Origin: Flavobacterium sp. JAD_PAG50586_2
GTDB taxonomy: Bacteria; Bacteroidota; Bacteroidia; Flavobacteriales; Flavobacteriaceae
DNA: 64,000 nucleotides
NCBI GenBank assembly: GCA_023213215.1
Contig: CP096136.1
Span: 1,798,001-1,862,000 of the forward strand
Direction of reading: 5' to 3'
Shown here: positions 13,724 through 29,794 of the stretch, one piece after another
Layout: each line of letters begins with the position of its first letter
How positions within the stretch are numbered: position 1 is the stretch's first letter
The notes under the pieces: generated by a model
Told to the model about the DNA's origin: nothing
Databases searched by the model: none
The model's input: only the letters and a program-made list of their open reading frames with translations
Program-made: the position numbers and the translations under genes

Positions 13724-15356
13724 TTATCTATTTTCTTTTTCAACTTCCAAATCCACAAACGAGAATGAATTTCCGCTGAACAAGCCTTTGTCTGAAAGCT
13801 TCAAATCAGGAATTACCAATAAGGCCATAAAGGAAAGCGTCATGAAAGGTGCTTTTAGGTTACTGCCTAATTGTTTAGCCATCGCGTCGATTTCCTGATA
13901 CGCTTTTCCGGTTTCCCATCCATCCTTGTCGCTCATGATTCCGGCAACTGGAAGCGCCAATGATTTTGATTCCAAACCATTTACCGCACAAACACCACCT
14001 TTGTTTTCAATCAAAATGTTGACTGCTTTACAGATTTCCTCGTCAGAAGTTCCAACCACAACTATGTTATGGCAATCATGCGCCACAGAGCTTGCAATCG
14101 CACCGCTTTTTAATCCAAAGTTTTTGATGAAGGCAATCGCAGGCTTAGCGTCCTGATACCGATTAACTACAGCCATTTTTAGTATGTCGTTTTCTGTGTC
14201 AGAGATGATTTTCCCGTTTTCTATCTTTGGTTTTTGATGGATTTCGTTGGTGATTAATTGCCCTTCCAAGGCTTCAATTACCCTGATTTTTTCGGCTGAG
14301 CCAGCAATTTCAAAGTCTTTGATTTCTTTTTGGACGTATTGAAATTATTCGGTTTTTCAAAGGCGATGTGTTTTACAAAAGACTTTCCGTTTTCGGCAAC
14401 CAATTCACCATCGATGTAGGTTTGAAGTACTTTAAAATCGGTTAAATCTTCAACCACAATAAAATCGGCAGCGTCATTTTTTTGCAATAAACCAATGTTC
14501 ATTTTGTAATGCTTCACCGGATTAATGCATGCCATCTGCAGTATTTTAAACAGATCAAATCCTTTCGCAACAGCTCTTGCACAAAGCAGATTAATATGTC
14601 CGACAATCAAATCATCAGGATGCTTGTCATCGGAACAGAACATCATATTTTCAAAATTATCAGGCAACAAATCGATTAAGGCTTCAAAATTTTTCGCAGC
14701 ACTTCCTTCACGAATAAGTACTTTCATACCTAATGATAGTTTTTCAGCACCTTCATCGTAAGTAAAACATTCGTGGTCGGTTGAAATTCCGGCAGCAATA
14801 TATTTTTTAATGGGTTCGCCACCCAATCCCGGCGCATGGCCATCCACAGGTTTATTGTAATGTTTCGCCCAGGCAATCTTTTTCAGGACTTCTTCATCAT
14901 CGAATAAAACGCCAGGATAATTCATCATTTCAGACAAATAATAAATATCAGGAGAAGCCATCAGTTCCTTAATCTGATCCGAATCAATTACAGCACCAGC
15001 CGTTTCAAAAAGGTTGCAGGAACACACGATGGAGCTCCAAAATGAAACTTCAATGGCACTTGCTTTCCGTTTTCAATCATATAATGAACACCGTCTTTTC
15101 CGAGCACGTTGGCAATTTCGTGTGGATCCGAAATCGTTCCGACAGTTCCGTGAAGGACAGCTATTTTTGCAAATTCGGATGGAACCAGCATCGAGCTTTC
15201 TATATGGATGTGAGCATCAACAAACCCGGGAAGAATATAATTTTTTACACTATGTTCTTTCTCCATTATGGAAGTAATCTTTCCGTTTTCAACAGTAATT
15301 TCTCCCGAATATATCCTGCGGTTTGGAATATCGACAATCTGGCCCTGAATCTGCAT
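13724..15356 (-). CDS. ade: Adenine deaminase (two frameshifts)
   Basis: The enzyme converts adenine to hypoxanthine for purine salvage. Three frames in series cover one protein of 544 residues. The N-terminal part has the metal site [14 protein letters not shown]; the central part has [30 protein letters not shown] and [15 protein letters not shown]; the C-terminal part has [29 protein letters not shown] and the end [22 protein letters not shown]. The first break is at the five A at 15007-15011 (one base missing, giving SCVPAT then [11 protein letters not shown]). The second is at the five T at 14327-14331 (one missing, giving [16 protein letters not shown]). Two independent errors in one gene could also mean a true pseudogene, but neighbours show the same kind of error. 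Confidence 0.85.
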
Positions 15357-15452
15357 TTTATAAAATTTTAGTAAATCAAAAATAACGAATATAACGAGGT
15401 TTTATCTATAAATTAGAAACAAAAACTATATCATTTTTTCTAAGCTTTCGCG

Positions 15453-15460
15453 TATTTTTG
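15453..15460 (+). promoter_or_regulatory. Probable -7 element for recJ
   Basis: TATTTTTG fits the Bacteroidota -7 consensus and lies 46 bases before the recJ start. A clear -33 TTG is missing. Confidence 0.4.
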
Positions 15461-15506
15461 TCTACAACCATTTAGAATTCAAAATTCAAAATTTATAATA
15501 AAAAAA

Positions 15507-17194
15507 ATGCGCTGGACACTCAAACCAAAACCAGATTCCCACAAAGTTAACCATTTGGCTGACCTATTAAAGGTAGACAATCTCATTGCTACGCTTTTGG
15601 TACAGCGCGGAATTGAAACGTTTGAACAGGCTCGCGAGTTTTTCCGTCCCAGTTTGGATGATTTGCACAATCCCTATCTGATGAAAGACATGGATAAAGC
15701 GGTTTTTCGAATTGAAACGGCGATTGTAAACGGCGAAAATATTTTGGTTTTTGGCGATTATGATGTCGATGGAACCACTGCTGTTTCTCTGGTTTCGTCT
15801 TATCTCAAAAGTTATTATCCGAATGTGGCGACTTATATTCCCGACCGTTATGATGAAGGTTACGGAATTTCGTTTAAGGGAATTGACTATGCCGATGACA
15901 ATGGAATTTCACTAATTATTGCTTTGGATTGCGGCATCAAATCGATTGATCACATTGCTTACGCGAACGAAAGAAACATCGATTTTATTATTTGTGATCA
16001 CCATCGTCCGGGCGAAAAATTGCCTGATGCTGTTGCGATTCTCGATCCCAAAAGGGAAGATTGCCATTATCCGTATGACGAATTATGTGGTTGTGGAATT
16101 GGCTTCAAATTGATTCAGGCTTTGGCCCAAAATAACGGGCAAACGATTGATGACTTGTTAATTTACCTCGATTTAGTGGCGACAGCAATCGCTGCGGATA
16201 TTGTTCCGATGACTGGTGAAAACAGGATTTTGGCGAAATTCGGGTTAGATGTTATCAATAAAAATCCACGTCCGGGAATTAAGGCTTTGATCCAAAACGT
16301 AAAGAAAAAACACTCACGATTACAGATGTCGTATTTATTATCGCACCAAGAATTAATGCGGCAGGCAGAATAAAGCATGGAAATGAAGCGGTCGCTTTGC
16401 TAACCGAATATGACTTAGATCAGGCGGAACAATTTGCTTCCGAAATAGAACAGCACAACTCTGACCGAAAGGATTTAGACAAACAAATTACCATTGAAGC
16501 ACTGGATCAAATTGAGATCAATAATGAGCAGGATGGTTTTACTTCTGTTGTTTATAGCGAAAACTGGCACAAAGGCGTTATTGGCATTGTGGCTTCCCGA
16601 TTGATAGAAACCTATTACAGGCCAACAATAGTTTTCACCAAAAGCGGTGACAAACTGGCTGCATCGGCGCGTTCCGTGAAGGATTTTGATATTTATAATG
16701 CTCTCGAAGCCAGTTCAGAACATTTAGAACAATTTGGAGGCCATATGTATGCCGCAGGAATGACATTGAAGGAAGAGAATTACCTAAACTTTAAAAAGGC
16801 CTTTGAAAAAGTAGTTTCAGAAACGATTCCTCCCGATTTATTGACTCCTGAAATTTCAATTGATGCCGAAATTGACCTTACAGATATCAATGAGAAATTA
16901 GTGCGGCTGTTGAACCAGTTCGAACCTTTCGGGCCACAGAATATGACACCCGTTTTTATTTCGAAAAATCTAAAAGACACCGGTTATGCTAAGCAATTAG
17001 GGCAAAAGGAAGAACATTTAAAATTATTTGTAAAACAAAATAATTCCGAAGGTTTTGGAGCGATAGGTTTTGGATTAGGAAACAAATTAGAATTGGTAAA
17101 AAGCCAAAATTCCTTTGAAGCTGTTTATTGCATTGATGAAAACGAATTTAATGGGAATGTAACTGTGCAGTTGAGGTTGAAGGATATTAGGTAA
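15507..17194 (+). CDS. recJ: Single-stranded-DNA-specific exonuclease RecJ (frameshifted)
   Basis: RecJ degrades single-stranded DNA 5' to 3' in mismatch repair and recombination. The DHH-family motifs are present: VFGDYDVDGTTA (motif I), LIIALDCGIKS, CDHHRPGE (motif III, DHH) and the CGCGIGFKLIQAL segment. The frame breaks after NVKKK; reading the six A at 16305-16310 as seven gives TLTITDVVFIIAPRINAAGRI and rejoins the second half (GVIGIVASRLIETYYRPTIV, ARSVKDFDIYNAL, the DHHA1 motif EQFGGHMYAAGMTL). The restored length of 562 residues is normal. It is monocistronic and convergent with the next gene. Confidence 0.92.
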
Positions 17195-19960: not shown

Positions 19961-20790
19961 TTATGGATTCTGCTCAAACGACTGATTTTCATTTTTTTCA
20001 GCGGCTCTGGCATTTAAGGCCAAATTATCAGCATTGACGATCATCGCTACAAAACTGATGTTTTCGGGATTTAAAAAGTTAGCCGGAATTGGGAATGAGA
20101 ACGATTTGGTAATCGTTTGTCCCGCAGTGGTGCTTTCGGTAATTGGATCACCAAGCAAATCAGTTATTTCTTTTCTTAACACATGATTGTGCTCATAACC
20201 TTGTACTGGATTTACATTTCCATAGTAGGAAGTATAATTTACCTGATTACGGATTAGGTGATTTTCAAGTGCGTAGACTACAAGCTTTAAGCCTGTATAG
20301 TTTTGGGCAAATTTCATGTTAACATCAAGGTTTACGGTTCCGTTTACCACTGTTGATGACATTGCAATTCCCAATCCGGCATTGTTTCCGGTCAGCGCTT
20401 TTGCTTGTGCAAGGTTAGAGGGTTCCGGAGAGGTCCATACAATAGTTCGATTTAATCGGGATTGCGGCAATTCTAAATCGGAATTTGGCATAATCATATC
20501 CTTCAAAGGTTGAAAGCCTGCAAAATGATAAGGATCATTACCATTGTGAATCGCAATCGTGACTACTTTATCTGACTGTTCAACCATCTGGTCGATAGCA
20601 TAGGCTACACGCGTACAGTTTCCACACCAGGTTCCGGTGTAATCTTCAATTAAAACTCTTTTTTGAAATAACCCGAAACCGGAGGTGCTGTTTCAGTATC
20701 ATCCGGAATATTTTCAATTACTTTCGTATCGCTACAGGAATAGAGTGTGATTAATGTTAAAAGAGAAAGGAGGGCTTTTATTCTTTTCAT
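19961..20790 (-). CDS. Omp28-related outer-membrane lipoprotein with thioredoxin-like motif (frameshifted)
   Basis: Two frames join into a 276-residue protein if the six T at 20659-20664 are read as seven. The N-terminus is a lipoprotein signal (LLTLITLYSC, cysteine 19). The restored junction gives VLIEDYTGTWCGNCTRVAY, a WCxxC redox-type motif at about residues 55-59, followed by a beta-rich Omp28-type domain. Proteins of this family are surface or periplasmic lipoproteins; their redox role is not established. It is divergent from the TlpA-like gene, which also has a WCxxC motif, with 93 bases between them, so the two may be jointly regulated. I chose the start at 20790 because it opens on the lipoprotein signal. 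Confidence 0.82.
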
Positions 20791-20883
20791 TTCAAATTTG
20801 AATTTAAGGAACAGCAAAATAAATAAAAAAACTTTAATCTTAAGCATATTATTTCTTTATTTGTACAAACAAACTAAACTAAT

Positions 20884-21363
20884 ATGAAGAACCTACTTAT
20901 TGCACTGTTATTCCTTACAGGATTTACTGCAATTTCTCAAAAGCAAATGCCAAATGTTTCATTGTCAGATATTGAAGGCGTAAAAAAATCAGTTGTTACA
21001 GATTTCATGGAAAAGGATAAAATCTATATTTTCTCTTTTTGGGCTACCTGGTGCACGCCTTGCATTGCCGAACTTGATGAAATGAACGACTTACAGGAAG
21101 AATGGAAAAAAGCATTGCCAATCGAAATAATTGCCATTGCTACGGATGATTCCAGGACACAAAAAAGAATTAAGCCATTGGTAAACGGAAAAGGCTGGGA
21201 ATATAAAGTTTTGTTAGACACCAACCAGGAACTGAAAAGAGCTTTAGGCATTGTTAATATTCCTTACACGGTCGTAGTGAAAAATGGCGTTATAGCTTAT
21301 ATTCAGAATGGATATGTTCCGGGAAGCGAAAGTGAGTTGTTTGAAAAACTTAAGACGCTTTAA
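20884..21363 (+). CDS. TlpA-like thioredoxin-family protein
   Basis: A 159-residue protein with a signal peptide (MKNLLIALLFLTGFTAISQ) and one thioredoxin-like domain. The active site is SFWATWCTPCIAELDEM (Cys57 and Cys60), followed by the cis-proline loop GIVNIPYTVVV. Proteins of this type act as thiol reductases or carriers in the periplasm, for example in cytochrome c maturation or repair of exported proteins. Its partner here is not known. It ends 3 bases before the DUF6029-like gene, so the two are co-transcribed. Confidence 0.92.
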   Translation: MKNLLIALLFLTGFTAISQKQMPNVSLSDIEGVKKSVVTDFMEKDKIYIFSFWATWCTPCIAELDEMNDLQEEWKKALPIEIIAIATDDSRTQKRIKPLVNGKGWEYKVLLDTNQELKRALGIVNIPYTVVVKNGVIAYIQNGYVPGSESELFEKLKTL

Positions 21364-21366
21364 CCG

Positions 21367-23052
21367 ATGAAGAGCATTATTTTAGTCGGACTTTTCGTTG
21401 CATCAACATTAACTTACGGTCAGGAAAAAGAAAAGGATAACGGTACTGTTTCGGGTGGATTTGAATCAAATGCCCAATGGTATTTAAACGATAAAGGGCT
21501 TTTGGATGAATTTTATAATCCTGTTGTTCACCCTGAAAACCCAGTACGATCCAATAATTATCTGTTTGTAAACTACAAAATAAAGAACTGGAGTTTTGGT
21601 ATACAAGGAGAAGCTTATGCTCAGGAAGCGCTTTTGAATTACAATCCAAAATATAAAGACGCGAATGTTGCAACTTATTTTGCCCAATTTAAAAACGATA
21701 AGATAGATGTGACGGCTGGTTATTTCTACGAGCAGTTTGGAAGCGGTTTGTTATTAAGAAGCTGGGAAGACAGGGCTTTGGGAATCAACAATGCCTTGAG
21801 AGGTCTTCGCGTTATTTACAAACCTGCAAAATATTTTACCATAAAAACGCTTTACGGACAACAGCGTACAGGATTTGATGTTTCGGAAGGGAAAATCTAT
21901 GGAACTGATTTAGAGCTGTCTCTTTCTGATATTTTTAAGTTTGAAAAAGATGAATTGTCATTTGGACTTACTTATGTAGGTAGAGATGAACAAACAGACA
22001 TTGTTGATCCTAAGTTTAACAGATTGACGAATGCCTTTGCCGGGCGTTTGAACTATGCCCACGATTCGTTTTATCTTTCAACCGAATTTGATTACAAGTC
22101 AAAAGATGCAGTAGTTCAGGTTAGGAATCAAATCGATAATAACCTTATCAAAACTGGAAATGCATTATTGCTTAATCTGGGCTATTCTAAAAAGGGATTT
22201 GGTGTTGATGCTACTTTCAGAAGATTGGAGAATATGAGTTTCTATTCGGAGCGTATTGCTAAAGGAAATCAGTTCAACGATATGATCATGAATTATGTGC
22301 CAAGTTTGACCAAACAACATCATTTTAATTTAGCTAACATTTATGTGTATCAGGCTCAGCCAAACGTAATCATTAATGATGTCAATTTAGTAAAGGCCGG
22401 AGAAATTGGCGGTCAGATAGATTTGTTTTACAACTTTAAGAAAGGAAGTCCTATAGGAGGAAAATATGGAACTAAGGTTGCCGTAAACTATTCTGAATAT
22501 CACGGCTTGGGAGGAGAATTCTACATCTTCTCGCCTCAGGATTACCATGCCGATTTTATAGGTTTTGGCCAAAAATACTTTTCGGATGCTAATATAGAAA
22601 TCACAAAAAAATTCAACGATAAATGGCTGACTGGCTTTAGTTTCATTCATCAGTATTACAATAAAAAATACATTGAAGAGACTTATGGCGAAGTTAACAC
22701 CAATATTTTAGGGGCAGAAGCAACTTATAAATTTAGTGCCAGTAAATCAGTTCGGGTGCAGGCAGAACATCTGTGGGCTGATAGTGACAAGAAGAACTGG
22801 GCTGCATTATTAGCCGAATTCAATTTGAGCACTAAATATACAGTATACCTATCTGACATGTATAACTATGGAAATGATGATGCCAAATTACGCCACCATT
22901 ATTACAGTATTGGAAATGCTTATAGGTATAAATCAACACGAATAGCTTTAGCTTACGGAAGACAAAGAGGAGGTTTGGTTTGTGTTGGAGGTGTTTGCCG
23001 TTTTGTTCCGGAAAGCACAGGAATTTCACTTTCCCTCAATACAAGTTTTTAA
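21367..23052 (+). CDS. DUF6029-like predicted outer-membrane protein
   Basis: The protein has 561 residues, a signal peptide (ILVGLFVASTLTYG, cleavage near residue 19) and a long series of amphipathic beta-strands ending in an aromatic residue (SLSLNTSF), as in an outer-membrane barrel. The N-terminal segment VSGGFESNAQWYLND is typical of the family I know as DUF6029. Two cysteines lie near the end (LVCVGGVCRF, a CxxxxC pair) and could be a substrate for the adjacent thioredoxin-like protein; that is inference. It follows the tlpA-like gene after 3 bases and ends in a strong terminator. Confidence 0.82.
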   Translation: MKSIILVGLFVASTLTYGQEKEKDNGTVSGGFESNAQWYLNDKGLLDEFYNPVVHPENPVRSNNYLFVNYKIKNWSFGIQGEAYAQEALLNYNPKYKDANVATYFAQFKNDKIDVTAGYFYEQFGSGLLLRSWEDRALGINNALRGLRVIYKPAKYFTIKTLYGQQRTGFDVSEGKIYGTDLELSLSDIFKFEKDELSFGLTYVGRDEQTDIVDPKFNRLTNAFAGRLNYAHDSFYLSTEFDYKSKDAVVQVRNQIDNNLIKTGNALLLNLGYSKKGFGVDATFRRLENMSFYSERIAKGNQFNDMIMNYVPSLTKQHHFNLANIYVYQAQPNVIINDVNLVKAGEIGGQIDLFYNFKKGSPIGGKYGTKVAVNYSEYHGLGGEFYIFSPQDYHADFIGFGQKYFSDANIEITKKFNDKWLTGFSFIHQYYNKKYIEETYGEVNTNILGAEATYKFSASKSVRVQAEHLWADSDKKNWAALLAEFNLSTKYTVYLSDMYNYGNDDAKLRHHYYSIGNAYRYKSTRIALAYGRQRGGLVCVGGVCRFVPESTGISLSLNTSF

Positions 23053-23066
23053 TAAAAGATATCCAT

Positions 23067-23100
23067 AAAAAAAGCCCCATCAATTTGATGGGGCTTTTTT
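23067..23100. terminator. Bidirectional terminator
   Basis: AAAAAAAGCCCCATCAA-TTTGATGGGGCTTTTTT is a near-perfect stem with A and T tracts on either side. It ends the DUF6029-like transcript and probably also the convergent T9SS gene at 23119. Confidence 0.9.
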
Positions 23101-23118
23101 AGTATAGTGAAGTTTTTG

Positions 23119-23865
23119 TTACTTCTTAATAATCTTTAAGGCTGCCTTTTTGCCCTCTTGGTTGGTGAAGTTCAAAATATAAACAGCAGCATTTAAATTG
23201 GACACATCCACAGTATTATATCCGGAGATATAGTTTACTGATGTAACCATTTTTCCGTTGATATCGTAAAGTTCTGCAGTTCCATTAGAAGTAGCATCAA
23301 ACTCAAATTGTGACTTTACCAATGTTGATGTCACATTGATTCCGGCAGTTTCAAGAGCATTGGATGCAAGGCCTAAGGCTGCGTATCTGTAGGTAATTGT
23401 TATAGAGTTACCAAATTCACCTCCAAAATTGTCGACCATATAAAATTTCAACACATACTCAACGGTACCATTTCCGTTAGTACCAGGATTGTTGTTGATG
23501 AAGTGATCAAAATTGCCGTTTTGTCCATTGGCAGGTACAACAGAATTTCCGCTGGCAGGATAGGCGTTACCAACTGTAATAGATCCGATGCAAATAGGAT
23601 CAATACAAAACTGAACGTTGTTTCCGTCAGCATTAGTCATACTGATAAGCCTCATCTTTACATTGATGGCATTAGCAGAACTGTTATAGATTTTCAATCC
23701 CAAATAAGCAGGATCTGATGATGATGCCGTTTCAGGATCACCCAATGTTGAAAAAGTGAAAACGTCTCCATTCAAAATAGGCGTTCCATCAAGTTTTTTC
23801 ATTGTCATTTGTGAAAACGACAAAACCGAATAAAAACAGGCGATGACAACAATTATTTTTTTCAT
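23119..23865 (-). CDS. T9SS type A sorting-domain protein, small
   Basis: A 248-residue exported protein with a signal peptide (IIVVIACFYSVLSFSQ), a beta-rich domain of about 150 residues, and a C-terminal T9SS sorting domain (FEFDATSNGTAELYDINGK, NAAVYILNFTNQEGKK, ending KIIKK). The central part has the wording of an immunoglobulin-like or Calx-beta-type domain but I cannot name it. Two cysteines (FCIDPICIG) lie close together. It lies just downstream of, and on the same strand as, the larger T9SS Omp28 protein, with a 27-base gap, so they are probably one operon. Confidence 0.85.
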   Translation of the reverse strand: MKKIIVVIACFYSVLSFSQMTMKKLDGTPILNGDVFTFSTLGDPETASSSDPAYLGLKIYNSSANAINVKMRLISMTNADGNNVQFCIDPICIGSITVGNAYPASGNSVVPANGQNGNFDHFINNNPGTNGNGTVEYVLKFYMVDNFGGEFGNSITITYRYAALGLASNALETAGINVTSTLVKSQFEFDATSNGTAELYDINGKMVTSVNYISGYNTVDVSNLNAAVYILNFTNQEGKKAALKIIKK

Positions 23866-23892
23866 AATGATTAAGTATTGTAGGTTATTAAA

Positions 23893-25779
23893 TTATTTTA
23901 CTAATAAATGTTTGCTGTAAGAAGTAGTTCCTGTAGCAATATTTACTATATATTCTCCTTTTGCGATTCCTTTGATTGGCAATGAGAATGTTTCATTATC
24001 TGAAACCTCTCTTTTGTCGCTTTGGATTACTCTTCCTAGCATGTCATAGATGGTAATCGAATAGCTGCCCCCTTTAAGGTTGCTGATATTGATATACTCA
24101 CTTGCAGGATTCGGATAGATGTCGAAAGTAGTAGCTGCGTTTTGGTTCACGGCAAGCGTTGCAAGTTCCACTGATTTTGCATTTACAACTTCTCCATTAT
24201 CCTGGTCAATTAAAAGAATTACAGCATGCATATCGGCAATTGTGCTTGTTGCAGGTACTGTATAATTAAAAGTATAACTTATTGTTTGTCCATCAGTAAT
24301 GGAAGTAGGAACAGAACCAGCCTGTCCGTTATAACCTCCTAATAAAGCTCTTCCAACATGGTCATACACCATTTGGGATGCAGGCACAGGATTTGGCAGG
24401 GATTCGTAACCGCCCATAGGACCGTTATCACCACCTGCATAGTAGTTAGTTTGACTATATGCTGCAGAAGTACCGGTAACGTCATCTTCTGAAATCACAA
24501 CTGCTAATCTGTAGTTTGCATTAGAAAAAACAGTTCTAAAAGTGGCATCAGCATTAATGGTAACCTGGTTGCCACTAACACCACCGCTTGCAGCTAAACT
24601 AACAGGTACAGTTAATAATTTTCTTGTATTTAAATTGCTAACCATATCAGCCTGGCTAACATCAGCACCTTTAACAGATCTGTCTACATTCATTCCGGGA
24701 AAGCCGGGAAGAGCCGCTCCAGCATTATATTCATCAAGTTGCATAAGGTCTTTGCCATTATAATTATGAACTGCTACACCAATAAATTCATTTGGATAAG
24801 TTGCCTGCATATAAGCCATAGCGAGAGCTCCTCTTGGACACCATCCACACCAAGTACCCGTTCCTTCTTCAAAAAATACTTTTTTAGGTGAGGCCTGGCT
24901 TACCGTATTAAATTTTGCGTTTCCGGTGTTATTGGCAGGAACAGGATCTACAGCCCCGTTAACAGCTGTTATGCTTAAAGCTAAATTCTTATCAACAACA
25001 GTAGCATAGTTTACAGGAGTTGGATGGTTTACTGTGGTGGTTGCACCTACAGCAATATTTCTATTTACAGTCATAGAATGATCAGTTCCGTCATTCCAGT
25101 TGATTGTTAAATTGGTAATTGCATTTAGCCCTACATTTTTAACCGTAAAGGTTAAAGTGTTGTTTGTGTTTTGTAAACTATATCTTTTCAGTTTAGCCGA
25201 GACCAATTGAACATCATTATTGGCTACACTTTTTACTACTACGTTGTCAATCAATATAAAATATTCATCTGGCGACTCATAGTGTCTGAATGATATATAT
25301 ATTGTTTGCCCTAAAAAAGAACTAATGTTAACAGACTTGTTAGTATAGGTAGTATTTGTAGGTGTTACTGTTAAAACAGGTGTTGCGGCGTTTATCACAG
25401 CTGGGTCATTAGATGTTGTAACATACACAGAGTATTTATCCGGTTCAGCCGGATCACCTAATAAATGATCAAAAAATAAGTACATATTTGACTCGGCTGT
25501 TGCGCCCGTTAAATCTATGGCAGGCGAAGTAACAAGATTGTCAGGGTCTAATGCTCCACTGGCTTGTGTCCAGGAAAATGACATTAAAGATCCTGGTACT
25601 GCAGAAGCATTAACGCCTGAGGCATTTAAAACACTCCAATTGTTACCATCTCCGTCAGTATCATTAACGGTCCAACCGCTTAAACCTCCTGATTGAAAAT
25701 TTTCTGAGTAATAAGTGGTTTGTGCAAAACCGAAAAAAGAACAAAAAAACAAAGTAAGTAGTAGTGTAGTTTTTTTCAT
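23893..25779 (-). CDS. T9SS-exported Omp28-type protein with CGWC motif
   Basis: The protein has 628 residues. A signal peptide (LLLTLFFCSFFGFAQ) is followed by a cleaved-adhesin/choice-of-anchor domain (about 25-185), a beta-sandwich segment on which the Omp28 domain sits (about 190-290), a thioredoxin-like site EEGTGTWCGWCPRGALAM (Cys311 and Cys314), and a C-terminal T9SS sorting domain (FDIYPNPASEYINISNL to SKHLLVK). The TWCGWC motif matches the one in the Omp28 lipoprotein at 20 kb. It would be displayed at the cell surface or secreted, an unusual place for a CxxC redox site, because there is no obvious thiol donor outside the outer membrane. It is the first gene of the pair with the 248-residue T9SS protein. 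Confidence 0.9.
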   Translation of the reverse strand: MKKTTLLLTLFFCSFFGFAQTTYYSENFQSGGLSGWTVNDTDGDGNNWSVLNASGVNASAVPGSLMSFSWTQASGALDPDNLVTSPAIDLTGATAESNMYLFFDHLLGDPAEPDKYSVYVTTSNDPAVINAATPVLTVTPTNTTYTNKSVNISSFLGQTIYISFRHYESPDEYFILIDNVVVKSVANNDVQLVSAKLKRYSLQNTNNTLTFTVKNVGLNAITNLTINWNDGTDHSMTVNRNIAVGATTTVNHPTPVNYATVVDKNLALSITAVNGAVDPVPANNTGNAKFNTVSQASPKKVFFEEGTGTWCGWCPRGALAMAYMQATYPNEFIGVAVHNYNGKDLMQLDEYNAGAALPGFPGMNVDRSVKGADVSQADMVSNLNTRKLLTVPVSLAASGGVSGNQVTINADATFRTVFSNANYRLAVVISEDDVTGTSAAYSQTNYYAGGDNGPMGGYESLPNPVPASQMVYDHVGRALLGGYNGQAGSVPTSITDGQTISYTFNYTVPATSTIADMHAVILLIDQDNGEVVNAKSVELATLAVNQNAATTFDIYPNPASEYINISNLKGGSYSITIYDMLGRVIQSDKREVSDNETFSLPIKGIAKGEYIVNIATGTTSYSKHLLVK

Positions 25780-26134: not shown

Positions 26135-29100
26135 TTAATCTTTTACAATTTTTAAACTTGAGTTAAGGTCTTTACCTGACAATTTTAAAAGATAAACCCC
26201 TTTTTGCAAATTACTTAAATCAATAGTTTTGGCTGAATCAAATAAAACTTGATTTTCTTTGTAGACAACCCTTCCATTTAAGTCCAAAACTTTAACGCTT
26301 ACTTTGTCATTAAAATTCTTTATGTTAACTGTAAACAGTCCTTTTGAAGGATTTGGAGAAACAGTTATTTCATTAGTAGAAATGCTTGCAGTCTTTGGTG
26401 CAAATCCGATTAACCTACTGCAAACGACTTCTGAAGAACTATCAAGAATGTTAATTTGCACTCCAGTAATTGTTCTCCCAAATTTAGGTATGTTACAGTT
26501 AGAAGTCGTGTAAAAAGCAGTAGCATTACTATATATGAAAATATACTTTAAACTTAAATTTTGACAAAAAGGATCAGTATTGTTATTTACTGCACAAGTT
26601 TGAGGAAATGTAGTAACCTTTGTAAAACCAGCTAAACAATCGCATTGACAAGATGAAGTTATCGTTTGTGTTACACTTGAGGAGCAACCACTGGAATTTG
26701 TTAACGTTAAGGTTATTTGACCTGGCAATGAAGTCCAGGTTATATTTGCGGTTGCTGATTTTGCTCCTGTAAATGAACTATATGTTCCTCCTGTAACCGT
26801 CCATAACGCTGTATGTCCCAAAGGAATAGTTGTTGTGTTGGTTGTTGTGCTGGTTTCAGTAACACAGGCATAAGTACTTCCCGATATTACAGGTGTTGAT
26901 GGTGCTGATTGTTGGGTAATATTAACTGAAGCAGAACCTGAACATCCCGATGCGTTAGTAATAGTCGCAGTAAGCGTTCCCGGAGAAGCCCAAGTTACTT
27001 CTACGCTTGACTGGTTGTTTAAGCCAACAATAGTACCTGTTCCTGAAACACTCCAGACAACAGTCTGTCCCGTTAATAAGGTAACAGAATTATTAGTATT
27101 TCTGTGGCCTGACCCTACAGGACAAATAGAAGTGCCTCCTGCAATAACAGGAACCGGATTAGCTATAACAAGAGGAATGTTTGCTAAAGCCGTATTGGTT
27201 GAACTCTTCAAATATATAGTGTAGCTTCCTGTTGATGGGAATGTATATGTGATTTGAGTTCCTGAACCAGTAAAAATAATGGCAGAACTACTGTTTCTGA
27301 TTTCCCAATTAAATGTAGTACCGCAGGCATTGGCAACAAATTTATAGGCAAGACAGCTGCTAGGATAACTACTGATAGATGCTGTTGTAGGAAAAGCCGT
27401 TGCTGTTTTGGCGTTGATAAAGTTAGGTAATGCATTATATACCTCGGTATTGGTTATCAGACCATCAACTGTATAATTACAGGCATTTGGATTATCTGTA
27501 CTGGCTAATGTATTCGGATTATGGACTATGCCTAATCTATTTTTATTCCTTATGCATTGATATAATTTATTGTCTGGACCAATTTGAATCTCTGATGTGT
27601 TTCCATAATTCGACGCAACAGTGACCCTGCTGTTTATTATGTTGCTCGAATTCATATTGTATTGATACAAATAAATAGTATCAGGCGATTCATGTCTATT
27701 TGGGCCTGAATCCATATACAATAATTTTGAGTCTGGGCTAAAACAAGCACCACTGCATTTTGGTAAAGTAACCGTATTACTTATTGTTCCATTAAATTTA
27801 TTAAAATCAAATAAATAACTATTATTAAGGTAGTGATAATTAACATATAACAATTTATTGCCGTCAGGTGAAATTTTCAATGAAGATCTCCAATCGAAAA
27901 GGGGATCTGGTGATGTTGGCATAAGGAAAGTACTGCTTACAACTGCTAAGCCCGAAGTTGTTAAGGAATAGATGACAATGTATTTGCCTGTACTCGACTT
28001 TAATGTGGTAAAAATCCAATATCCGCCGGTACATCTTTCCATAGCAATTACGCCTTCGCCTCCTAAAACTGCCCCGTTATTACCGGTATTGAATCCAGCT
28101 GGAATAGTTATCGGAACATTGACAGAAGGAGCCATGCTTACAATTCCCCCACTAACATTGACTAAACTATATCTGAAACCATTTAAACCGGCTGAACCTG
28201 TACCGCTGTAATTGGAATCGATTGTGAAAATGTAATACTGGATTGAATTTGCAGGATTTGGTAGAATCAGGACTCCTGACTTAGAATTGCCACTTCCGGT
28301 TAAAGCAGTAGAATTGACAGGTGCGTTAATGGAATCTTTCCACACATACCGCCCATTTGTATAAAACAAAACTCCGCCAGATGAATTATTTACCATTGCA
28401 CAGGATTCATCAAACGTAACGGCCTGAGGAAAGGTTTTGTTTGTTGCAATTGGCACACCCGTACTAAAACTCATAGAATTATTTGTTGAAAAATACCAGG
28501 TGCTTTCCTGTCCCGATATACCGGAACAATTCGTGATGAAAATTCTAGCAAGATAAGTTGCTGAATTTGTTCCATCTGAAACAGTTAGGGAAACTGTATA
28601 TGGTGAATTTGCCGCAGAAGTAAACGAGTGGGTAGGCGTTGTTGCTAATGATTGGTTAGAGGCACCGGAAGCAGTATCACCAAAATCCCATGAATAGGTT
28701 AGTGAAGTAGAATTTAAAAGAGGTGTAAAGGTAATTGAATTACCCGCAAAACAAGAATAATAGGTACTTGGGGTAAATTTAGCGGTGATCGTATTTGGAT
28801 TGATACACGTTACTCCGGTATATATTAAGTTCTCATCTGAAATCAACTCACGGCGGGCAAAGTTTACTGCATCATACATCCTCCATTTTTGCCCTAAAGT
28901 GAAACTTGTAACGCAATTATCATTGCCATAATCCATATAATTATTAATCAAATCTGGAAAGTTAGGAGATTCGGAACAGGAGTTGGTTCCTGTTGTACAG
29001 CTAAAGTTAGCAGCTGCTACAGGAGGTGTATCACAAACCCTGTCACCTGCACTTAAGCAATTAGAACCCGTCATTCCTGCACATCCTCCTTCAAAAGTAT

Positions 29101-29794
29101 GATACAATCCTAGATAATGACCCACTTCGTGTACCAAAGTTTTTCCTAAATTATAGTTTGGCCTTAAATTAGCATTGCCATTGCCAAATGTATCATAGCG
29201 CATCACTATGCCATCAAAGACAGGCGAGGTATTTGGAAACATTGAATATCCTAAAATACCGCTTGAAGTTCCATTAATGCTATTAACAACCCAAATCCTT
29301 AAGTACTGGGATCTGGTTATGGTTGGATGTATAGCGTCTAGTAACGATTGCCATCCACTTGCATTAGCAGTATGATCTGTTGCTGTTGTATTATAGTGAA
29401 TGATTCCTGGTGTATTCTGAATAGCCCAAGCGGGAGTAACAATTGGATTTGCACCTGTTTTAGTTGCCAGGCAAAAGCTTATGCCATAAGCACTGTAATA
29501 ATTGTTCAAGGCTACTAGCTGATCTAACACCTGACTGTCATTTATGTTTGCGCCACCTCCAAGAGCTTGGTTGTTATGGAGGATATTAATTTGAACCGGA
29601 ATCGTAATTGAAGGAACAATATCCGTTTTCAATGAAATACGATCGGCCAAATAACTGTCTAGGTTATCAATCTTGATTTTAACATCAGGATCAGTGTTAA
29701 TTAAGTCGGTAGTTACCTGGTCGGTAAAACAGGGTGTCTGAGAATGAACCGTCAGTCCCAAAAACATTAAAAGTAAAATAAAGATTTTTTTCAT
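26135..29794 (-). CDS. T9SS-exported M43 family zinc metalloprotease with PKD domain
   Basis: A 1,219-residue secreted protein. After a signal peptide (FILLLMFLGLTVHSQ) comes a pappalysin-type (M43) protease domain of about 300 residues with the zinc motif HEVGHYLGLYH (222-232) and the trailing GDRVCDTPPV segment. A PKD-type domain follows (about 340-425, with SLTYSWDFGDTASG), then a beta-propeller-like central region of about 400 residues with KISPDGNKLLYV-type repeats, then immunoglobulin-like Cys-containing repeats, and a T9SS sorting domain (NEITVSPNPSKGLFTVN, ending KIVKD). It would hydrolyse proteins outside the cell for nutrition or attachment. It is monocistronic. The region after the catalytic domain is AT-rich and low in complexity, as in other flavobacterial surface proteins. 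Confidence 0.9.
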   Translation of the reverse strand: MKKIFILLLMFLGLTVHSQTPCFTDQVTTDLINTDPDVKIKIDNLDSYLADRISLKTDIVPSITIPVQINILHNNQALGGGANINDSQVLDQLVALNNYYSAYGISFCLATKTGANPIVTPAWAIQNTPGIIHYNTTATDHTANASGWQSLLDAIHPTITRSQYLRIWVVNSINGTSSGILGYSMFPNTSPVFDGIVMRYDTFGNGNANLRPNYNLGKTLVHEVGHYLGLYHTFEGGCAGMTGSNCLSAGDRVCDTPPVAAANFSCTTGTNSCSESPNFPDLINNYMDYGNDNCVTSFTLGQKWRMYDAVNFARRELISDENLIYTGVTCINPNTITAKFTPSTYYSCFAGNSITFTPLLNSTSLTYSWDFGDTASGASNQSLATTPTHSFTSAANSPYTVSLTVSDGTNSATYLARIFITNCSGISGQESTWYFSTNNSMSFSTGVPIATNKTFPQAVTFDESCAMVNNSSGGVLFYTNGRYVWKDSINAPVNSTALTGSGNSKSGVLILPNPANSIQYYIFTIDSNYSGTGSAGLNGFRYSLVNVSGGIVSMAPSVNVPITIPAGFNTGNNGAVLGGEGVIAMERCTGGYWIFTTLKSSTGKYIVIYSLTTSGLAVVSSTFLMPTSPDPLFDWRSSLKISPDGNKLLYVNYHYLNNSYLFDFNKFNGTISNTVTLPKCSGACFSPDSKLLYMDSGPNRHESPDTIYLYQYNMNSSNIINSRVTVASNYGNTSEIQIGPDNKLYQCIRNKNRLGIVHNPNTLASTDNPNACNYTVDGLITNTEVYNALPNFINAKTATAFPTTASISSYPSSCLAYKFVANACGTTFNWEIRNSSSAIIFTGSGTQITYTFPSTGSYTIYLKSSTNTALANIPLVIANPVPVIAGGTSICPVGSGHRNTNNSVTLLTGQTVVWSVSGTGTIVGLNNQSSVEVTWASPGTLTATITNASGCSGSASVNITQQSAPSTPVISGSTYACVTETSTTTNTTTIPLGHTALWTVTGGTYSSFTGAKSATANITWTSLPGQITLTLTNSSGCSSSVTQTITSSCQCDCLAGFTKVTTFPQTCAVNNNTDPFCQNLSLKYIFIYSNATAFYTTSNCNIPKFGRTITGVQINILDSSSEVVCSRLIGFAPKTASISTNEITVSPNPSKGLFTVNIKNFNDKVSVKVLDLNGRVVYKENQVLFDSAKTIDLSNLQKGVYLLKLSGKDLNSSLKIVKD

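Follow-up and report, generated by a model that had tools for sequence, protein, structure and literature searches.

How could thioredoxin-fold proteins that lie beyond the outer membrane of a Bacteroidota cell be supplied with electrons? We asked this question of a locus in Flavobacterium sp. JAD_PAG50586_2, whose genome assembly consists of one contig of 3.81 Mb (completeness, 94.6%). The stretch analyzed here, the window, comprises 64,000 nucleotides (nt) of contig CP096136.1, and coordinates count from its start. An initial annotation had described three thioredoxin-fold proteins in the window, two of the Omp28 type and one resembling TlpA, clustered with an outer-membrane protein of the DUF6029 type, and had suggested a thiol-redox path leading outward. 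All four genes were found at the positions it gave, and the cluster proved to be real and larger than described, with a further conserved gene (positions 23119 to 23865). Our analysis revealed that a TlpA-like thioredoxin and a DUF6029 barrel form a gene pair across the Bacteroidota phylum and that surface-type thioredoxin-fold proteins are encoded with them: an Omp28 lipoprotein, an Omp28 protein exported by the type IX secretion system (T9SS), or both, and redoxins in one family. We propose, with moderate confidence, that the cluster encodes a thiol-disulfide relay across the outer membrane, in which electrons would pass from DsbD through TlpA and DUF6029 to a surface Omp28.

The pair itself lies on the plus strand of the window. 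Its first gene (20884 to 21363) encodes a TlpA/ResA-like thioredoxin with a signal peptide, an AhpC-TSA domain (61.8 bits; cut-off, 26) and a WCxPC active site (ATWCTPC); the protein did not reach the equivalog or subfamily cut-offs of the NCBIfam ResA/DsbE/TlpA models (best score, 61.9 bits versus 170). It is by far the best of the 11 TlpA-like matches in the genome to the family profile, at 212 bits versus 64 bits for the next, although the window protein is itself one row of that profile. The second gene starts after a spacing of 3 nt (21367 to 23052) and encodes an outer-membrane beta-barrel that matches Pfam DUF6029 (PF19494) over the entire profile (1 to 538 of 538; 689 bits versus a cut-off of 27; E = 4.7e-207).

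Is this arrangement kept in relatives, the test that the initial annotation had set for its own proposal? We read the DNA of 30 loci from the order (L003 to L032), of 10 further order loci (L183 to L192), of 70 loci from the phylum (L113 to L182, from 69 genomes) and of 12 loci from a family search that gave 18 matches (10 of the 12 were new). The phylum loci were fetched out of the 80 genomes with DUF6029 among 296 sampled Bacteroidota genomes. The search behind another 80 named loci relied in part on a pattern that included CVGGVC; these loci were used for gene order and excluded as evidence on the cysteine pair. A TlpA gene was located within 2.5 kb upstream of DUF6029 in 29/30 and 10/10 order loci, the lone miss being at a contig edge, and in 61/70 phylum loci, in 5 of which it was divergent rather than in line. 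The remaining nine phylum loci comprised one TlpA fusion, one locus with just 158 nt upstream and seven without TlpA. TlpA adjoined or was fused to DUF6029 in all 12 family-search loci, and it was present in 77/80 named loci (two of the three misses were at contig edges), with a median gap of 11 nt and a gap of at most 100 nt in 69/76. An Omp28 gene was found within 3 kb of DUF6029 in 29/30 and 10/10 order loci and in 50/70 phylum loci; in the named loci, it was divergent from TlpA and less than 600 nt away in 63/76. Order-wide, 75 of 148 genomes encoded DUF6029, 79 encoded Omp28 and 74 encoded both (Fisher P = 8e-35, from hand-tallied counts uncorrected for relatedness). The TlpA-DUF6029-Omp28 linkage holds, then, through the order and the phylum. 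The CxxC motif was conserved in 176/177 TlpA proteins and in 192/194 Omp28 proteins, the exceptions being unreadable through N; this count skipped Omp28 proteins shorter than 240 residues or above E = 1e-8.

As a control, we examined which other genes recur in the 80 named loci. After Omp28 and TlpA, the commonest cluster was a housekeeping gene, in 23/80 loci. The nine annotated neighbor clusters encode aldehyde dehydrogenase, an aminotransferase, RsmG/GidB, ApaG, a fatty-acid desaturase, a T9SS plug-domain protein, NqrA and Trk-type proteins. The T9SS plug-domain protein recurs in 16/80 named loci. These data bear on the reading that the neighborhood is due to chance or that DUF6029 is a Wzi-like porin for polysaccharide export. 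HHpred does show similarity to DUF6029 for some barrels of the Wzi type that are encoded close to genes for polysaccharide export, according to the available part of PMC9603273, and this was the sole appearance of DUF6029 that we found in the literature searched. All nine of the commonest other neighbors are housekeeping or T9SS genes, none of them for polysaccharides, and both the linkage and the fusion described below extend over the phylum; this reading is strongly disfavored, and we consider it very improbable.

We then asked whether the barrel carries a feature that could take part in thiol exchange. The initial annotation had mentioned the CVGGVC pair of DUF6029 in passing; the pair is indeed present, as residues 539 to 544 (codons at 22981 to 22998, plus strand), and we regard it as the most telling feature of the locus. 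Two cysteines spaced C-x4-C, approximately 23 and 18 residues from the C terminus, were found in 30/30 and 10/10 order loci, 68/70 phylum loci and 12/12 family-search loci; in the two phylum loci that failed, L137 and L138, the gene is broken, by a split of the frame in one case and by truncation in the other. The middle of the hexapeptide varies (CVGGVC, CTSGIC, CSNGVC and CTNGVC), and both cysteines are kept even in DUF6029 homologues detected with an E value of only ∼1e-9. Because the full alignment of 188 DUF6029 rows includes the named loci, we took its 69 phylum rows as the unbiased subset. At a median pairwise identity of 21%, C544 was present in 100% of these rows and C539 in 98.6%. 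The approximately 10 near-invariant columns of DUF6029 hold, besides the two cysteines, Gly, Pro, Glu and one Gln, and no further cysteine column above 20% was observed in the 188-row alignment.

The structural model of DUF6029 (mean predicted local distance difference test [pLDDT], 76.7) has ∼24 strands, as read from its DSSP line, and the cysteine pair lies in the hairpin that joins the final two strands (524 to 533 and 550 to 560). With a periplasmic C terminus, this hairpin would be the last extracellular loop, a placement that we make with low confidence. The nearest folds were ushers and large channels, led by FimD (3ohn; Z = 18.1, root mean square deviation [rmsd] of 4.1 over 384); AlgE and OprD-type barrels were within 1 Z of the top match, and MtrB ranked fourth in Foldseek. 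The DUF6029 profile matched nothing among PDB chains up to E = 1. These fold matches are those of generic large barrels, and we derive no functional class from them. A multiheme conduit was also considered for the locus and rejected, as at least three CxxCH motifs were found in just 1 of 2,138 predicted proteins of the loci.

One genus encodes TlpA and DUF6029 as one polypeptide, in both of the genomes seen, which represent two species (L119:4518-6530 and L196:1495-3528). The two open frames encode 671 and 678 residues, 67% identical over 673 residues, with AhpC-TSA at residues 21 to 140 and DUF6029 at 158 to 667. The signal peptide of TlpA is retained, a second one was not seen by eye, and both ATWCVPC and CVGGVC are present. 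Since the linker is short, TlpA can be expected at the periplasmic mouth of the barrel, and the existence of a natural fusion suggests docking in the mouth or the lumen. On this basis, we tentatively suggest that DUF6029 serves as a thiol conduit in the outer membrane. In this view, TlpA would dock in the periplasmic mouth or lumen of the ∼24-stranded barrel and exchange disulfides with the C-x4-C hairpin, from which electrons would move to Omp28/HBP35-type thioredoxins or redoxins outside. The main rival explanation assigns TlpA a dedicated role in maturation. TlpA would form, reduce or isomerize the barrel's own disulfide during assembly in the periplasm, after which the pair would be structural and the Omp28 proteins would serve separately. 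A single client pair, a single adjacent oxidoreductase and their near-perfect pairing are in line with such a role, and LptD and similar barrel proteins are known to need Dsb proteins for their conserved disulfides. A permanent fusion of TlpA to the barrel would be odd for a folding helper, and we consider maturation rather unlikely, for further reasons given below.

Can the thioredoxin-fold proteins encoded around the pair be placed on the cell surface? The Omp28 lipoprotein gene (19961 to 20790, minus strand; stop at 19961, ATG at 20790) is divergent from TlpA, its ATG being 93 nt ahead of the TlpA start. It encodes a lipobox (LYSC) followed by TGTWCGNC, in a thioredoxin-like CxxC domain joined to a beta domain, and it matches Pfam Omp28 (PF11551) at 104.5 bits (cut-off, 34.9); the in-frame part scored 65.6 bits against a cut-off of 150 for the NCBIfam Omp28 lipoprotein model NF033782. 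The gene is not a single open frame in this assembly. The part from TGTWCGNC on is out of frame with the signal peptide and lipobox, with the break at a run of A near 20661 to 20666. This frameshift is probably an assembly indel error, because recJ and ade (13724 to 17194, at a distance of 3 to 7 kb) are likewise broken, into two and three frames, and because the 29 aligned Omp28 homologues were each taken as a single open frame. On the same grounds, we judged a programmed frameshift to be less likely.

A model of the in-frame part of the lipoprotein, from KRVLIEDYTG on, had a pLDDT of 96.2, and its nearest fold in the PDB was HBP35 of Porphyromonas gingivalis (5y1a; Z = 23.4, rmsd of 2.2 over 209 residues; runner-up, Z = 16.7). 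According to the available text of PMC2907840, HBP35 reduces insulin in a manner that requires both cysteines, acts as a reductase in vitro when dithiothreitol is supplied and occurs in a modified form on the surface. Both window Omp28 proteins also matched, below the cut-off, the NCBIfam family of Omp28-related selenoproteins, and relatives that carry selenocysteine would fit a redox role.

The other Omp28 protein is encoded on the minus strand downstream of DUF6029 (23893 to 25779). It combines a Cleaved_Adhesin/choice-of-anchor J region, TGTWCGWC, Omp28 (PF11551; 61.7 bits versus 34.9) and a T9SS tail (Por_Secre_tail; 52.5 bits versus 27), as assigned with Pfam, and the genome encodes the T9SS translocon SprA, matched through SprA_N. 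Conservation of its CxxC was the second test set by the initial annotation, and the motif was invariant in 20/20 aligned proteins. Of all members of the set, this protein showed the least constant linkage, with confirmation in 17/80 named loci (of 44 long Omp28 proteins there, 19 were scanned). Between it and DUF6029, also on the minus strand, lies the small T9SS-tailed gene (23119 to 23865; Por_Secre_tail, 32.7 bits versus 27). This gene is itself conserved, with 21 BLASTP relatives in 20/80 named loci, and each of the 17 loci in which the T9SS Omp28 was confirmed had such a relative. The initial annotation had pointed out that the two Omp28 proteins share the TGTWCGxC motif. We rejected TGTWCG as a lineage mark; the partner thioredoxins use many CxxC contexts (GHxCxNC, GINCxYC, SATCGPC and others), and the motif delimits no group.

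In a distant family (f37), TlpA and DUF6029 are accompanied by a small redoxin of the GxxCPHCR type and a T9SS-tailed redoxin, which replace the Omp28 pair. All 11 long redoxins scanned had the T9SS tail (L171 and L173 to L182). The small redoxin was found in 9/11 of these loci, and 6 of the 9 had a clear lipobox by our own pattern; in two of the loci, an Omp28-type sequence (ADWCTYC) was also matched weakly, at a distance of 2 kb. The same pair of positions is thus filled by two distinct thioredoxin-fold families, a finding that would be difficult to account for if they had no thiol function in common. Downstream of redoxin-type modules, we also observed a gene of the TonB-receptor type with a CxxC (QVDCAVCG or similar), at L177:1346-3535 and as relatives in L173, L176 and L178.

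Could the barrel instead be a channel that is gated by or coupled to redox state? DUF6029 would then import or export a small molecule (heme, a metal or a thiol compound), to be reduced or bound by the thioredoxins on its flanks, and the cysteine pair would gate the channel or bind the cargo. Substrate channels and ushers are the folds closest to the barrel, redoxin-type loci alone have an adjoining TonB receptor, which contains a CxxC, and HBP35, the nearest structural relative of Omp28, binds hemin. This binding persists without its CxxC, as the available text of PMC2907840 reports for both points, and the annotated recurrent neighbors in the named loci include no metal, heme or thiol transporter, the sole transport genes being Trk-type, in 12/80 loci each. 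These data make a channel doubtful.

Returning to the proposed relay, we envision the following path. Cytoplasmic thioredoxin would donate electrons to DsbD in the inner membrane, and DsbD would hand them on to a TlpA located at or inside the periplasmic mouth of the barrel. TlpA would pass them to the C539/C544 pair of DUF6029, and this pair would in turn reduce Omp28/HBP35-type or redoxin proteins outside, which may act on disulfides or other oxidized targets on the cell surface. The initial annotation had seen no electron donor; a DsbD-type candidate for the inner membrane is encoded elsewhere in the genome (one DsbD_TM match; E = 4.2e-27).

Several observations weigh against the relay. The DsbD-type gene is unlinked to the cluster, and few parts of the barrel model are less certain than the cysteine hairpin (pLDDT, below 50). 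No Omp28 was found within 3 kb in 20/70 phylum loci, 11 of which carry redoxins instead. Surface display of the Omp28 lipoproteins is something we infer; the acidic surface-export signal of lipoproteins (PMC5080379, as described in its available part) was present in 38/62 Omp28 lipoproteins compared to 25/61 other lipobox proteins of the same loci, a mild enrichment counted with a lipobox pattern that admitted some doubtful rows. Finally, the cysteine pair is kept without a TlpA within 2.5 kb upstream in seven phylum loci (L115, L118, L121, L123, L129, L161 and L166) and in one named locus (L112). The seven phylum loci also favor maturation, in that a general oxidoreductase could serve a structural disulfide. 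Maturation accounts neither for the thioredoxins with surface signals that are encoded alongside nor for the substitution of redoxins for them. We favor the relay over maturation because of the fusion, the presence of thioredoxins on both sides of the barrel and their replacement.

A T9SS-tailed M43 metalloprotease with PKD domains, assigned with Pfam, is encoded beside the cluster (26135 to 29794). Scans of the locus for promoters and terminators were uninformative, with 17 promoter-like sites versus 11.5 expected (SD, 3.5). The closest DUF6029 barrels among the named genomes were those of Flavobacterium and Flavobacteriaceae. Within the genus, the locus is patchy: in the phylum search, two same-genus genomes matched, one distantly, and 15 did not. 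In one same-genus genome (L172:3764-6317), the DUF6029 protein differs strongly from the window type; it carries CNAGIC and is encoded together with TlpA and a small protein that has a CxxC (GNTCPSCK). Horizontal transfer is a possible explanation.

How does this module compare with known systems? Full-text literature searches (DUF6029; Omp28 with outer membrane and Bacteroidetes; redox and T9SS) revealed no description of the module in titles or the beginnings of abstracts, most subscription journals being outside their scope. The families are each known by name, as are T9SS-exported thioredoxins (HBP35) and a T9SS Omp28 protein with a trypsin phenotype; their combination was undescribed in the literature searched, in agreement with the initial annotation, which knew of no such system described for the phylum. 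HBP35 has the two-part fold of the window Omp28 model, a CxxC, a C-terminal T9SS signal, a surface location and insulin reduction; it belongs to a sequence family of another name and binds hemin, and the available text of PMC2907840 mentions no TlpA or DUF6029 partner. The 00502 protein of Paraprevotella clara is likewise Omp28 related, exported in a T9SS-dependent manner and anchored at the surface, where it is linked to trypsin recruitment and autolysis; the word thioredoxin is absent from the main text of PMC9477747, and its available part mentions no TlpA or DUF6029 partner.

LptD-LptE also pairs a large barrel that has disulfides with a partner in its lumen. It has no sequence match to the module, and binding of TlpA in the lumen is our proposal only. 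With the DsbD/TlpA/ResA relays, the module shares a DsbD-type donor in the genome and a WCxPC TlpA of the AhpC-TSA/Redoxin thioredoxin group, and it differs in that the partner is an outer-membrane barrel. To our knowledge, those relays stop in the periplasm or at cytochrome maturation, and we know of no earlier thiol relay that crosses an outer membrane; if the outer membrane is crossed as proposed, the module would be the first and a thiol relay of its own kind, and DUF6029, a domain of unknown function, would gain a role. We found no account, in the literature searched, of how surface thioredoxins are re-reduced beyond the outer membrane, and a cysteine-bearing barrel with a periplasmic thioredoxin would be a concrete answer. 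In its layout, a large barrel with periplasmic and surface redox proteins, the module resembles MtrCAB, which uses multiheme cytochromes where the window module has thioredoxin folds; the fold match to MtrB is a generic one. If true, the DUF6029 conduit would be a heme-free equivalent of MtrCAB and would provide the missing source of power for the surface thioredoxins of Bacteroidota.

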